A DNA stretch of 49,135 nt from a virus. This document shows, one piece after another, positions 1,587 to 47,509 of this stretch; position 1 is the first letter of the stretch; each line of letters opens with the position of its first letter. The stretch is taken from positions 1-49,135 of IMG/VR virus record IMGVR_UViG_3300042894_001940; one strand, written 5' to 3'. The notes under the pieces were generated by a model. The model did not search any database. It worked only from the letters and a program-made list of their open reading frames with translations, and was not told where the DNA came from. The translations under genes and the position numbers were made by a program.

Positions 1587-2300
1587 ATGGCTTTACCAAA
1601 ACAAATACTACCAACATACTCAACAGAACTTCCTTCAACTGGAAAAGTAATCAAATTTAAACCGTTCCAAGTAAGAGAAGAAAAAGCATTACTATTAGCT
1701 CAACAAAGTGATGATAAAGGTATCATGGCGGATACACTGAAAGATGTTGTAAAGCATTGTGTGGTTGATGATATAGATGTTGAATCTTTGGCAATGTTTG
1801 ATCTCGAATACTTGTTACTCCAAATTAGGGCAAAATCAATTGGAGAGATTGTAGCATTAATTTTCTCATGTGATACTTGCATTGATCCTAAAGCCAAAAC
1901 AAAGATCAACTTTGATTTGACTCAATTGAAAGTTAAGAAAGATCCTAATCATACTAACAAGATAAAGTTATTTGATACGACTGGAGTAGTATTAAAGTAT
2001 CCTGATGTTAGTGCAATTTCTAAATTTGATACATTAGAAGATGACGATATTAATGGCATATTTGATCTTATCATTAGTAGTATTGATTATATCTATTCAG
2101 ATGATGAATTCTTCTATGCAAAAGACCAGACTAGACAAGAACTGCATGAGTTCATTAATAACTTAACACAAGTACAATTCCAAGAATTGGTTAAGTTTTT
2201 CGAGACCATGCCAAAATTAAGACAAGATGTAAAGTATACTTGCCCATTGTGTGGATTAGCGCATAACAAGTATATCGAAGGGATTGATAGTTTTTTCTAG
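1587..2300 (+). CDS. 26: Baseplate hub protein gp26 (zero-frame product)
   Basis: The 237-residue product has the T4 baseplate-hub N-terminus (ELPSTGKVIKFKPFQVREEKALLLA, residues about 14-38, shown here only as family evidence in parts: LPSTGK, FKPFQVREEK). Four cysteines, CDTC near residue 95 and CPLCG near 221, suggest a small zinc site. gp26 acts in assembly of the central hub. Its last sense codons AGT TTT TTC directly before TAG contain the heptamer T TTT TTC, a canonical -1 slippery site. The gp51-like frame continues in -1, so a minor fusion product of about 296 residues is likely. Confidence 0.75.
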   Translation: MALPKQILPTYSTELPSTGKVIKFKPFQVREEKALLLAQQSDDKGIMADTLKDVVKHCVVDDIDVESLAMFDLEYLLLQIRAKSIGEIVALIFSCDTCIDPKAKTKINFDLTQLKVKKDPNHTNKIKLFDTTGVVLKYPDVSAISKFDTLEDDDINGIFDLIISSIDYIYSDDEFFYAKDQTRQELHEFINNLTQVQFQELVKFFETMPKLRQDVKYTCPLCGLAHNKYIEGIDSFF

Positions 2301-2411
2301 TAGCCCTCTCGCATGACTCGTTGGCAAATTTCTATAAACTGAACTTTGCCTTAATGCAGTATCACAAATATGCTTTGTCAGATATTGAAAATATGATACC
2401 GTTCGAGAGGG
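2291..2411 (+). promoter_or_regulatory. Candidate -1 programmed frameshift signal
   Basis: The slippery heptamer TTTTTTC (2291-2297) is in phase with gp26 codons (T TTT TTC). Six bases downstream, CCCTCTCG (2304-2311) is perfectly complementary to CGAGAGGG (2404-2411), an 8-bp GC-rich stem in an AT-rich region. A weaker GGCAAA/TTTGCC pair (2323-2328 with 2345-2350) lies within the long loop. A spacer of about 6 bases before a stimulatory stem is typical of known -1 sites. Whether the stem forms is inference. Confidence 0.6.
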
Positions 2412-2476
2412 AAATTTACATAGCTATGCTAGTAGAATACTTAGAAGAAAGAAAAAGGGATCAACAGAACAAATAA
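2291..2476 (+). CDS. 51: gp51-like hub assembly factor, probably made by -1 frameshift from gp26
   Basis: The -1 frame relative to gp26 is open from the slippery heptamer (2291-2297) to TAA at 2474-2476. It encodes 59 residues from base 2297, including FALMQYHKYALSDIENMI and PFEREIYIAMLVEYL, which resemble gp51-type hub factors. The first ATG in frame (2354) falls inside the conserved block, and neither it nor the TTG at 2321 has a Shine-Dalgarno sequence, so independent initiation looks poor. An in-frame stop at 2288-2290 closes the frame upstream. The layout mirrors siphovirus G/GT tape-measure chaperones. Confidence 0.6.
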   Translation, partial: FFLVALSHDSLANFYKLNFALMQYHKYALSDIENMIPFEREIYIAMLVEYLEERKRDQQNK

Positions 2477-2490
2477 CCACAGGATGGGTC

Positions 2491-5400
2491 ATGAAGAAAA
2501 TTCTCAACCAACAAATAGAACATTTAGTAAAATTGGAAGAACTTGCAATCATTAGCAATGATGCCCTTGATGCTAGTAATATAGAACTTCAAAGCATGGC
2601 TCAAGACTTGTCCGATATATCTGAAAAGATGTCTACTATTATGGCATCTAGTAAGGAAAGAGATATCAAAGAAGCTGATGTTGCTAAGGTAGAAGATAAA
2701 GAAAAGTCTGACAATAAAAAGGACGACCAGTCTAGTAAAGACAAATCGCTAGAAGAACTTAAAAAGATATCTGCTGCTTTAAAGTCTCAACATAATGTAG
2801 ATGTAGCGGATAAAGCACTTAATGATCCAGTTTACCATAATATGTTTACTCGTATGGATTTGTTAAAAGAGTCATTTGGTAAACTCAAAAATACGTTTAA
2901 GGATAATGATACTGGTAAAACAACTGTTGGTAGTACATTCAAAGGAATAACTAATAACGTATCATCCATTTTTTCTAAGAATGCTAGAAATAGAAACCAG
3001 TACATTACTACTGAACGAGCTGCTGGTTCAGTAAAAACTGATAAGCAGTTGAAAGAACAGTATAAAGAGAAACAAAAACTTTTATACCTTAATAATAAGA
3101 ATGAAAGAAATATGAACGAGAATAGAGGTCTTCTATCTAAAGAAGAATTCCTCAAATCAACTTCACCTGATGCTAAAAAGTACAGAGAAGAACAACAACA
3201 AATTGGTAGTAGATTATCTGAAATCGATTCAAGATACAAATATACCAATCCACAGAAATCTGATAGAGAAAAAGATCTTAGATTCTTTGGCAAAGAAGGC
3301 TCTTGGAAAGCTAAACCAACTGAACCGACGCCTCCATCCGATAAACCATCACCAACTGAACATCCGATTTCAGGTGATGGTTTGGCCATACTTGAACCAT
3401 TAAAAGTAGTAATTGAAAACGAACCTATTACGGTAAAAATAGATAAGGATTCTGCAGATGATTCACAAGAATGTGAATGTGAAAAAACTGATTGCTGTGA
3501 AGAATTATCTAATGCTATAGATTCGATAAAATTTACTATAGAAAAGTTATCAAATAAAATTGCCCCGTTAGTTTCTAGTAATGTAGTTTCCGATGCTAGT
3601 ACTATCAGCAATACAAATACAAATAATGCAAGCAACGCTAATACAAATAATGCAAGCAACGCTATTACCAATAATGCAAGTAATGCAAATACAAATAATG
3701 CAAGCAACGCAAGCAACGCTATTACCAATAATGCAAGCAATACAAATACCAATAATGCAAGCAATGCAAATACCAATAATGCAAGCAACGCTATTACCAA
3801 TAATGCAAGTAATGCAAATACCAGTAATGCAAGTAATGCAAATACCAGTAATGCAAGCAACGCTATTACCAATAATGCAAGCAACGCTATTACCAGTAAT
3901 GCAAGTAATGCAAATACCAATAATGCAAGCAATGCAAATACCAATAATGCAAGCAACGCTATTACCAGTAATGCAAGTAATGCAAATACCAATAATGCAA
4001 GCAACGCTATTACCAGTAATGCAAGTACTAGTTCCAATATAGAAACTAAATTGGAAACAGCAAGATCAACTGAGTTATTCCAAGACAATCAATTATCCTC
4101 GACAAATGACCAGAATAAATTACTAGACGAAACTCTCAAAGTCCAAAAGTTAATTCTCGAAGAACTCAAAAAACGTACTGAAGAAATCATCAAGAAAAAA
4201 GAACCACCTACTAAAAAACCAGATGATGCTGATAAAGATATTGATGTTAACAAACCAAGAAAAACTAAAAACGATAGAACCAATAGAAGACCAATTCCTA
4301 CTAGAAATAACGGTCGTAGACGTAGAGGATTATTTGGTCGATTAGGATTAGGTACTGCAGTTGCCGCTAGTGTTGCAGAAATGAGTACTGATGATAATCA
4401 TACACCTTCTTTAGCTGATGTCGTGCCAGAAGAAAGGTTTCCAAACAGAACAACTAATGCGCCTAGACCAACTACACCGGAAGTACCTAAGACTTCTACT
4501 GGACGTGGAATACTTGATAAAGCTAAAGGCGTATTCAATAAGATTCCTGGTGCCTCCGTATTGAAGAATGCTGGTAAAATGGCATTACGATTAGCAGGTC
4601 CAGCAGCTGCTGCATTAGCTGCTTATGAAGTTGGATCTACCGCTATAGACGCTTATGATGAATCGTTTGGTGAAGGTGGCAAGAAAGTAGTACAAGATCT
4701 TCATCATAAAAAGATCATATCGTATAATTTCGGTGATTCGGAAGTACTAGATTGGAAAGGTATTCAAGAATTACCAACAGAAGATTTGAAGAAACTCATT
4801 GATGCTAAAATAAGATTCAAACCAGAAGATGACGCTAAACTTCATGAAGTATTGACTCATAAATTAGTAACTAGAGATACTAAATCTGAAATCGGTAAAC
4901 CAGAAGTAGTAAAACCAACAGAAGTTAATGGTAAACCAGAAGTTCAATCTGAAATCGGTAAACCAGAAGTTCAATCTGAAATCGGTAAACCAGAAGTTAA
5001 TGGTAAACCAGAAGTTCAATCTGAAATCGGTAAACCAGAAGTTAATGGTAAACCAGAAGTAGTAAAACCAACAGAAGTTAATGGTAAACCAGAAGTAGTA
5101 AAACCAACAGAAGTTAATGGTAAACCAACAGAAGTTAATGGTAAACCAGAAGTTCAATCTGAAATCGGTAATGTATATTCTGAAGATGTCAAGAAGATCT
5201 ATAATGATTTGAAAGAAAACAACAAGTATAGTATTACTAAAAATGAATTGTTGGAAGATGCTGTAGCAGAAGCAAAATCTAAAGGACTAGAGATTTATTC
5301 CAATATTGCTATGGGCGAAGTTAAGCCAATTGCACAACAATTGAGCTTGGATAAAATTAAACCAGAAACTAAAATAGCACCCGAAGCAATCAAACCAAAA

Positions 5401-5610
5401 ACTCTTGCTCCAGAAGCTGCTAATGTAGTTTATGATAAATCTGCAGAAGTTTCAAAAGAGGCTAGTAATACTTCTACTGTGGTCAATAACATTTCAGCTC
5501 CGACTAATAATGTTACTCAACACTCAACAAATCAACAACCACCAATGAATCCTAGAAATACTGAATCAACAATATCAAAATTCTTCCAGAATAGAAACAG
5601 TTTCTACTAG
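2491..5610 (+). CDS. Large repeat-rich tail protein, probable tape measure
   Basis: This 1039-residue protein has an N-terminal helical, charged region (residues 1-270), an Asn/Ala/Ser repeat block, a Lys/Arg-rich linker, a small hydrophobic Ala/Gly patch (around residues 695-720, KMALRLAGPAAAALAAYE) and a second tandem repeat block rich in KPEV, followed by an Asn/Gln-rich C-terminus. Its place directly after gp26-gp51, which resemble tape-measure chaperones, and the hydrophobic patch in a long helical protein favour a tape-measure role like T4 gp29 (590 residues). No recognised enzymatic motif is visible. It ends at a strong terminator and is the last gene of the plus-strand operon. Confidence 0.5.
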   Translation: MKKILNQQIEHLVKLEELAIISNDALDASNIELQSMAQDLSDISEKMSTIMASSKERDIKEADVAKVEDKEKSDNKKDDQSSKDKSLEELKKISAALKSQHNVDVADKALNDPVYHNMFTRMDLLKESFGKLKNTFKDNDTGKTTVGSTFKGITNNVSSIFSKNARNRNQYITTERAAGSVKTDKQLKEQYKEKQKLLYLNNKNERNMNENRGLLSKEEFLKSTSPDAKKYREEQQQIGSRLSEIDSRYKYTNPQKSDREKDLRFFGKEGSWKAKPTEPTPPSDKPSPTEHPISGDGLAILEPLKVVIENEPITVKIDKDSADDSQECECEKTDCCEELSNAIDSIKFTIEKLSNKIAPLVSSNVVSDASTISNTNTNNASNANTNNASNAITNNASNANTNNASNASNAITNNASNTNTNNASNANTNNASNAITNNASNANTSNASNANTSNASNAITNNASNAITSNASNANTNNASNANTNNASNAITSNASNANTNNASNAITSNASTSSNIETKLETARSTELFQDNQLSSTNDQNKLLDETLKVQKLILEELKKRTEEIIKKKEPPTKKPDDADKDIDVNKPRKTKNDRTNRRPIPTRNNGRRRRGLFGRLGLGTAVAASVAEMSTDDNHTPSLADVVPEERFPNRTTNAPRPTTPEVPKTSTGRGILDKAKGVFNKIPGASVLKNAGKMALRLAGPAAAALAAYEVGSTAIDAYDESFGEGGKKVVQDLHHKKIISYNFGDSEVLDWKGIQELPTEDLKKLIDAKIRFKPEDDAKLHEVLTHKLVTRDTKSEIGKPEVVKPTEVNGKPEVQSEIGKPEVQSEIGKPEVNGKPEVQSEIGKPEVNGKPEVVKPTEVNGKPEVVKPTEVNGKPTEVNGKPEVQSEIGNVYSEDVKKIYNDLKENNKYSITKNELLEDAVAEAKSKGLEIYSNIAMGEVKPIAQQLSLDKIKPETKIAPEAIKPKTLAPEAANVVYDKSAEVSKEASNTSTVVNNISAPTNNVTQHSTNQQPPMNPRNTESTISKFFQNRNSFY
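3609..4029 (+). repeat. Coding tandem repeat, 24-bp unit (NASNAxTx)
   Basis: About 17 copies of a 24-base unit encode NASNANTN, NASNAITN and NASNAITS variants, with one 12-base partial duplication (NASNAS). The unit length is a multiple of 3, so copy-number change keeps the frame. All other frames are also open across the array. Confidence 0.9.
4885..5169 (+). repeat. Coding repeat block (KPEV modules)
   Basis: Interleaved modules KPEVNG, KPEVQSEIG and KPEVVKPTEVNG are repeated about ten times within the large tail protein. Module lengths are multiples of 3 bases. Near-identical DNA copies suggest recent expansion by recombination or slippage. Confidence 0.85.
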
Positions 5611-15965: not shown

Positions 15966-16724
15966 ATGACCAGCACAAGTATATATCAATCAATAGTACC
16001 TACCTACCTTTATATCAAACAACATTCCGTTACCAAAAAGAAATATTTTGGCAAGACTACTAGAGACCCATACAAATATAATGGTTCTGGCGAATATTGG
16101 TCCAAACATATCAAGAAGCATGGAAAAGAACATATTGTTACCTTGTGGGTTTCTGATTTGTACTACGACACATCAATTGTTGATATTGCACTACATTTTT
16201 CATTCGATAATAATATTGTTGAATCTAAAGAATGGGCAAATCTAGAACCAGAAAATGGCTTGAATGGTGGTGCTTCTGGCAGGAAGTTTTCCGAAGAATC
16301 CAAAGCCAAACTGTCTGTAGCAAAGAAAGGAATATCAAGATCTGAAGAAACTAAAGCCAAAATGTCTGCTGCAATGAAAGGTGTTCCTAAACCTCCCCGT
16401 ACAGCAGAACATTGTGCTAAAATATCTGCTAGACAGAAAGGCGTTCCTAAACCAGAATTATCTGCCAGACAAAAAGGCGTTCCTCTATCAGAGGAAACTA
16501 AAGCAAAAATATCTACGGCAATGAAAGGTGTTCCTAAACCAGAAGGATTTGGTGCAAAAGTATCTGCTGCAATGAAAGGTGTTCCTAAACCTCCTCGTAC
16601 AGCAGAACATAAAGCCAAGTTAAGAGTTCCTAAATCAAAATTCTTTTCAATTATTGAAACTAGAAAGACTTATGACAAGGGAAATCTTTCCAGACATTAT
16701 CCTGAATTTAAGCAATATTACTGA
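15966..16724 (+). CDS. GIY-YIG-like homing endonuclease with NUMOD3 repeats
   Basis: The 252-residue protein has a degenerate GIY-YIG module (YLYIKQH then KKYFGKTTRD, residues about 14-34) followed by a chain of NUMOD3 DNA-binding repeats (SEETKAKMSAAMKGVPKP and variants, about residues 105-225). This is the layout of Seg-type free-standing homing endonucleases, which cut related genomes to copy themselves. It lies on the strand opposite to its downstream neighbour, has its own late promoter, and overlaps the convergent phosphoesterase gene by 17 bases. Confidence 0.85.
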   Translation: MTSTSIYQSIVPTYLYIKQHSVTKKKYFGKTTRDPYKYNGSGEYWSKHIKKHGKEHIVTLWVSDLYYDTSIVDIALHFSFDNNIVESKEWANLEPENGLNGGASGRKFSEESKAKLSVAKKGISRSEETKAKMSAAMKGVPKPPRTAEHCAKISARQKGVPKPELSARQKGVPLSEETKAKISTAMKGVPKPEGFGAKVSAAMKGVPKPPRTAEHKAKLRVPKSKFFSIIETRKTYDKGNLSRHYPEFKQYY

Positions 16725-19918: not shown

Positions 19919-20354
19919 TGATTGTCTCGTAGATATGGTAGCAGTAAACTAAATCGATTATTGGTTCGTCATAAATGTATTCAGTAGTAGGAGTTTGTGT
20001 ACCAATATAGTCGCCCCATTTGTGCCATCTCCAACCTTCATATCTAGGTTGACTAGATTTAGTGATTTTATGCAATAGCACTACGAATTCACGGTCAGGT
20101 GATAACAGTTCAGGAATGACTTCAAGTAAATTTTCAATTCCATCACATACGCCATAATACCATGCAGAATCATTTGTTAGAAATTCAGGATCTCTAATAT
20201 ATGATTTAGAATGCTCGATTGCATGTAACCGAGACGAATAATTGCTTATATATGATTTAGAACGCTCGAGTGCATGTAACTGAAACGAATAATCGCTCAG
20301 ATAAACGCCTTCTTGTAATTGATGTTCTTGTATAATCGGGTTACTTTTTAACAT
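19908..20354 (-). CDS. Unknown early protein with internal repeat
   Basis: ATG at 20354 follows the repeated GAAGAGGAATTATAAA leader. The 148-residue product carries a 17-residue direct repeat near its N-terminus (SDYSFQLHALERSKSYI and SNYSSRLHAIEHSKSYI). No family recognised. Confidence 0.7.
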   Translation of the reverse strand: MLKSNPIIQEHQLQEGVYLSDYSFQLHALERSKSYISNYSSRLHAIEHSKSYIRDPEFLTNDSAWYYGVCDGIENLLEVIPELLSPDREFVVLLHKITKSSQPRYEGWRWHKWGDYIGTQTPTTEYIYDEPIIDLVYCYHIYETISEN

Positions 20355-46669: not shown

Positions 46670-47509
46670 ATGTCCAGCACAACTATATATACACCATTCA
46701 CTTATTGTATCACATTTCTCCCAACAGGGCAACGATACTATGGTGTTCGATATGCAAAAGGTTGTCATCCTTCTCAACTTTGGACGACCTACTTCACTTC
46801 ATCAAAAATAATATCCAATCTTATAGAAGAATATAGCAAAGATTCATTCACCTTTGAAGTTCGAAAAACATTTATCAATAAAGATTCTGCTCTATATTGG
46901 GAAACAAAATTCCTTACAAAAATAAATGCAGCAAACCATCCAGAATGGCTCAATGGTCATAATGGCGATCTAAAGTGGAATAATGTTGGTGGATATAAAC
47001 TCACCGAAAAAACAGTATCCAATATGAGAAAACCAAAATCAGAATCTCATAAACTAAATATGAGAACACCAAAATCTAAAGAACGGAAACTTTCAGAAAG
47101 AACCAAATGTTTTGAGAAAACAGGATATTACTCTAATTTTGAAAATCCAGATATTATTCAAAAATGCAAAGATTCGTATTTTCAAAATACTGGATATACT
47201 CATAATTCAAAAAATCCAGAAACTATTCAAAAGAGATCAGATAGTTATTTTGAAAAAACGGGATATGCTAACCCCTCAAAAAATCCAGAAGTGTTAGCAC
47301 ACCAATATGATTCGTATTTTCAAAATACTGGATATACTCACCCAAGCCTCAATCCAGAAGTTCAAGAAAGAAAAATCCAAACCTATAAAGACACATGCTC
47401 TAAAAGACCTCCTATAAAATGCCCCTATTGCGATGTTTCTGGCAAAGGAGGCATAATGGGTAGATGGCACTTTGATAATTGTAAATTTAAACCCTTACCA
47501 ACTGAATGA
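46670..47509 (+). CDS. GIY-YIG homing endonuclease between nrdA and nrdB
   Basis: ATG 46670 follows CAGGAG; an upstream ATG at 46607 has no ribosome site. The 279-residue protein has a GIY-YIG core (FTYCITFLPTGQRYYGVRY), 25-residue repeats (FEKTGYSNxxxNPE-type, DSYFQNTGYTHPSLNPE) probably binding DNA, and a C-terminal CPYC...HFDNC finger. It lies antisense to the reductase genes and overlaps the nrdB 3' end by 15 bases. Confidence 0.85.
   Translation: MSSTTIYTPFTYCITFLPTGQRYYGVRYAKGCHPSQLWTTYFTSSKIISNLIEEYSKDSFTFEVRKTFINKDSALYWETKFLTKINAANHPEWLNGHNGDLKWNNVGGYKLTEKTVSNMRKPKSESHKLNMRTPKSKERKLSERTKCFEKTGYYSNFENPDIIQKCKDSYFQNTGYTHNSKNPETIQKRSDSYFEKTGYANPSKNPEVLAHQYDSYFQNTGYTHPSLNPEVQERKIQTYKDTCSKRPPIKCPYCDVSGKGGIMGRWHFDNCKFKPLPTE

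Follow-up and report, generated by a model that had tools for sequence, protein, structure and literature searches.

A conserved slippery heptamer and −1-frame extension at the gp26-gp51 junction of T4-like phages

The gp26-gp51 junction and its −1 frame

We analyzed the junction between gp26 and gp51 in a 49,135-nucleotide (nt) stretch of viral DNA, IMG/VR record IMGVR_UViG_3300042894_001940 (here, the window), for which a preliminary description made from the sequence alone had proposed −1 programmed frameshifting. The source is an ocean-type T4-like phage. On the plus strand, which carries all parts of the junction and the gene downstream of it, gp26 (1587 to 2300) encodes a protein of 237 amino acids, the short, TAC-N-like form of a tail assembly chaperone. 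This protein matches PF12322 (T4_baseplate, 1.5e-58) and phrog_150 ("baseplate hub," 7.6e-65), to which it aligns up to position 232, and its predicted structure matches viral gp26-type baseplate hub proteins. The terminal codons of gp26 read ...GAT AGT TTT TTC TAG. They include a slippery heptamer, T_TTT_TTC, in phase at 2291 to 2297, and the zero-frame stop codon TAG follows immediately at 2298 to 2300, as the preliminary description had stated.

The −1 frame continues from 2297 to 2476 (59 codons plus a stop codon) and encodes a gp51-like, TAC-C-like extension. The extension hits phrog_634 ("baseplate hub assembly catalyst," 3.3e-25) as well as the C-terminal end of phrog_150 (positions 235 to 277, 1.3e-7); the window thus has both the gp26-like N-terminal part and the gp51-like C-terminal extension of the T4-type gp26/gp51 chaperone family. 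Joining the 59 residues read from 2297 to the 237 of gp26 gives a conceptual fusion of 296 residues, the size previously estimated. No solved structure related to gp26 or gp51 was found by sequence search.

Our comparative set consists of 117 loci, each containing the whole gp26 end, obtained from a scan of viral contigs together with 11 GenBank records and reduced to 77 non-redundant sequences. As a scan query, a mixed alignment of 16 gp26 proteins proved unusable because of its divergence. The −1 frame is under purifying selection: its ratio of nonsynonymous to synonymous polymorphism (pN/pS) is 0.32 over 45 codons, compared to 1.0 to 1.9 in the other frames, and 0.55 to 0.70 in codons 1 to 5; taken over both comparisons, the other frames range from 1.0 to 2.2. 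This selection begins 5' of nearly all possible start codons. In the window, the −1 frame contains no ATG or GTG before its conserved core; the sole possible start, TTG at 2321, has no Shine-Dalgarno sequence and lies 3' of the conserved residues LVALSHDS, which initiation there would remove. The earlier statement that this frame has no usable start for its conserved N-terminal part and no ribosome site holds for the window. Among 75 non-redundant sequences, the extension lacks an ATG in 30 (including the window), any start codon in 16, and a start codon combined with a Shine-Dalgarno-like match in 70, leaving only five with such a combination. Relatives thus lack, on the whole, the clear ribosome site and start codon for gp51 that would have refuted the preliminary reading.

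Slippery heptamer and downstream RNA structure

An in-phase T_TTT_TTN heptamer is present at the gp26 end in 115 of the 117 loci (N is C in 76, T in 37, and G in 2) and in 75 of the 77 non-redundant sequences; looking for such conservation in related phages was a check suggested in the preliminary description. In these loci the zero-frame stop codon falls 0 or 3 nt past the heptamer, with the exception of one record, and the homologue of the extension sits in the −1 frame in all 115. They span marine IMG/VR contigs, cyanophages, Pelagibacter and Methylophilales phages, KVP40-like Vibrio phages, and Aeromonas, Pseudomonas, and Rhizobium phages. With the amino acids held fixed, the probability of this codon choice is approximately 10^-28.7, a naive value that ignores shared ancestry. 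Other Phe-Phe pairs inside the same genes never use T TTT TTN (0 of 69), and G TTC TTT is the most frequent choice there. The U_UUU_UUY heptamers form an efficient class in E. coli (PMC4066793). We also found the heptamer in Stenotrophomonas phage Bhz51, Vibrio phage D480, and the jumbo phage Phosso. The match in Phosso, a 469-kb Sinorhizobium phage, is a very distant one to gp26 (E about 1) that ends in T TTT TTC and is followed by an extension-like −1 frame, a sequence resemblance which suggests that the arrangement may extend to jumbo phages.

The RNA downstream of the heptamer is unusually stable. The 115 nt past the site fold more stably than synonymous recodings of the −1 frame, with a mean z score of −2.4 and a score of −5.8 for the window, compared to −0.5 to −1.0 for control stretches (four in gp26 and one further downstream). 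In the window, a spacer of 6 nt (2298 to 2303) separates the heptamer from an 8-bp stem whose 5' arm, CCCTCTCG, occupies 2304 to 2311 and whose 3' arm, CGAGAGGG, occupies 2404 to 2411. The stem proposed earlier is thus confirmed: it starts exactly 6 nt past the heptamer and is part of the minimum-energy fold, with p = 0.01 relative to synonymous recoding. A test for local hairpins in the window as a single sequence gave a weak result (z score −0.08), and significance there is limited to the long-range structure. An Rfam search of the window returned no match.

Twelve non-redundant phages, one of them the window, have a helix of 8 bp or more in the register seen in the window (sum of offsets 119). 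Two neighboring registers contain eight more helices, and most registers are empty. Within the 12-phage set, which was picked for possessing the helix, 93.9% of cells pair, compared to 44 to 64% when the arms are slid. Both-sided changes occur at five pairs, and the covariation score was reached by none of 500 shuffles; the pattern persists after the addition of six further sequences. Among the remaining lineages, the structure is a mid-range helix or a compact hairpin, and an individually significant stem beginning 4 to 9 nt past the heptamer is present in 37 of 74 sequences. The covarying, putatively stimulatory helix with its loop of approximately 92 nt may be a new detail and, if functional, would be of use as a natural system for studying how frameshifting is stimulated in bacteria.

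Interpretation of the junction

Taken together, these data make it very probable that −1 programmed ribosomal frameshifting yields short and long forms of a T4-type tail (hub) assembly chaperone, in a manner similar to G/GT. The window shares two features with frameshift-made chaperones (TAC-N/TAC-NC): the short form ends in a conserved slippery motif that is in phase, and the C-terminal domain lies in the −1 frame without an independent start. Under this model, the majority of ribosomes would terminate at the TAG at 2298, releasing the 237-residue gp26 form. A minority, stalled by the RNA structure 6 nt downstream, would slip back one base on T_TTT_TTC as the tRNA-Phe molecules in the P and A sites re-pair, from TTT and TTC to TTT and TTT, and would then read the −1 frame to 2476 to produce the 296-residue gp26-gp51 fusion. 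We infer the slippage itself and its rate. If the analogy with lambda gpG/gpGT holds, the part shared by both forms would bind the tape measure protein, the presumed product of the neighboring gene, and the rare extension would bring in tail-tube subunits.

Gp51 could also be made as a separate protein by re-initiation (stop-start coupling) near the gp26 stop codon, with no fusion. This is how most GenBank records annotate gp51, and an in-frame ATG lies within or just 3' of the junction in 45 of 75 relatives, in some as TAATG; TAATG or TGATG occurs in KVP40-like and Rhizobium phages. However, many relatives, like the window, have no ATG at all, very few combine a start codon with a Shine-Dalgarno-like match, the conserved residues begin 5' of any start, gp51 of T-even phages is full length and uninterrupted, and the heptamer would be left unexplained. 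We therefore consider re-initiation as the sole source of gp51 very unlikely.

The T-run itself raises two other explanations. The RNA polymerase could slip on it, giving mixed mRNA in which some length-changed molecules join the two frames; the runs are 6 to 8 T's long, and 37 of the 117 loci have at least 7. In 76 of the 117, however, there are only six T's followed by C, which is short for polymerase slippage, and the phase of the heptamer and the structure at 6-nt spacing are typical of ribosomal frameshifting. Transcriptional slippage is accordingly a very improbable account, about as poor as re-initiation. A run of T's is also a place where a homopolymer error in sequencing or assembly could split a gene that is truly a single fused frame. 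Because the identical frame change is found in the identical place in 115 loci, and is conserved across finished isolate genomes, we rejected this explanation, which we regard as extremely improbable.

Some observations weigh against ribosomal frameshifting. The ATG codons near the junction are one, and in the relatives that have them re-initiation may yield a free C-terminal piece in addition. Another is that the full heptamer is absent in four phages: Vibrio phage D492, Aeromonas phage TSW001, and two Ackermannviridae. All four retain TT TTC, which leaves a U_UUC tetramer, and their extension likewise lies in the −1 frame; otherwise the heptamer is retained where gp51 is in that frame. Among tetramers, U_UU.C ranks second in E. 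coli but requires a strong stimulator (PMC4066793). D492 also carries TAATG, a possible re-initiation site, and a scan with D492 gp26 as the query found no relatives. Two further points are that the gene downstream of the junction matched no tape-measure profile and that a search of PDB folds with the T-even gp51 model returned nothing at E ≤ 0.001. The missing fold match speaks against homology with the lambda gpG/HK97 gp13 family but not against a similar function.

With frameshifting as the preferred explanation, a more detailed scenario is conceivable, and we offer it tentatively, with rather less confidence. In this scenario, the RNA structures that stimulate the T4-like chaperone frameshift, anchored approximately 6 nt past the heptamer, would have changed in the course of evolution: the window and other lineages have a covarying long-range helix with the loop of approximately 92 nt, some have a mid-range helix, and cyanophages have a compact hairpin. 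A few lineages (Ackermannviridae and some Vibrio and Aeromonas phages) would have cut the heptamer to a U_UUC tetramer.

Downstream of the junction, an open reading frame (ORF) at 2491 to 5610 encodes a repeat-rich protein of 1,039 amino acids, which we presume from its position and length to be the tape measure protein. Vibrio phage nt-1 has a 623-amino-acid gene in the tape-measure position between gp26/51 and gp3, close in length to T4 gp29. A BLAST comparison of this nt-1 gene with T2 gp29 detected no similarity, and for this reason the tape-measure identity continues to be a presumption. The ORF in the window contains a tandem array of 24/72-nt units at 3610 to 4025, encoding a repeat (NASNANTN) rich in Asn, Ala, and Ser, and a second array at 4930 to 5154, GKPEVNGKPEVQSEI. 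Additional tandem repeat arrays are present in the window at 16473 to 16591, 20190 to 20297, and 47021 to 47340.

Comparison with T-even phages and other tail chaperones

T2 and its relatives carry gp26 and gp51 as two distinct genes, one on each strand. T2 gp51 (249 amino acids) spans positions 13 to 280 of the 282 in phrog_150 and positions 2 to 103 of phrog_634, and T2 gp26 ends at phrog_150 position 235. In profile comparisons, residues 7 to 200 of T-even gp51 align with the entire gp26 and residues 206 to 246 align with the extension (E = 1.3e-6 by hhalign for the −1 extension of the window). The conceptual fusion from the window aligns across the junction, from residue 21 to 282, with residues 13 to 244 of T2 gp51 (E = 1.5e-9). 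Judged by these alignments, T-even gp51 is a full-length paralogue consisting of a gp26-like part plus the extension in frame; the products that other T4-like phages would obtain from a single gene are thus encoded by two in T-even phages. The proteins are homologous in the two arrangements, with T-even gp26 corresponding to the short form and T-even gp51 to the full-length form, but the T-even genes have no slippery site. Where T-even gp26 genes have Phe-Phe at the corresponding position, the pair is encoded by TTC TTT preceded by G or A, and T-even gp26 terminates shortly past the slip position. Such non-slippery codons are as expected if frameshifting is not needed there. In their 2022 study, Vladimirov and colleagues reportedly describe a frameshift conserved in several T4-like groups and assign the two forms in T4 to genes 26 and 51.

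Our data support the preliminary suggestion of gp26/gp51 as the counterpart of G/GT in T4-type phages, as well as the treatment of T4 gp26 and gp51, whose role has long been unclear, as a chaperone pair. Leiman et al. 2010 list both as hub assembly chaperones, with the function of gp51 unknown (PMC3004832), and a 2016 review described G-T frameshifting as conserved in long-tailed phages except T4 (PMC5009743). In lambda, neither gpG nor gpGT is found in virions (PMC5009743). Our analysis found no sequence relationship to lambda gpG/gpGT or to the siphovirus and P2-type chaperones (Xu, Hendrix and Duda 2004), and the window differs from these systems in having a U_UUU_UUY heptamer and a strong downstream RNA structure. 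The division of labor between common part and extension is what we infer from the lambda analogy.

The junction also bears on the annotation of other genomes. Cyanophage gp51 was described as missing its first approximately 200 residues by Sullivan et al. 2010, in retrieved passages that do not mention frameshifting (PMC3037559). Its truncated look is explained if the missing N-terminal part is gp26, which the frameshift would supply. GenBank records of seven relatives give gp26 and gp51 as separate coding sequences and never as a joined one, and in those of S-MbCM7 and aagejoakim the −1 frame is unannotated. A joined gp26-gp51 annotation would correct many genomes.

The preliminary description knew of no account of the arrangement for T4-type genes 26 and 51. 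A frameshifted T4-like tail chaperone was already published in 2022, judging by what citing papers say of that study, and the central claim is not new. Vladimirov, Gautam and Davidson (Virology 2022, 566:9-15) are cited, in passages of later papers, for some T4-like phages in which the short and the fused chaperone each have a gene of their own and frameshifting is not used (PMC10885494) and for poly-T slip signals in T4-like short-form genes (PMC12846349). The window resembles the latter chaperones, as those passages present them, in having predicted short and long forms and a poly-T slip signal in the short-form gene, and it adds a new member to this group.
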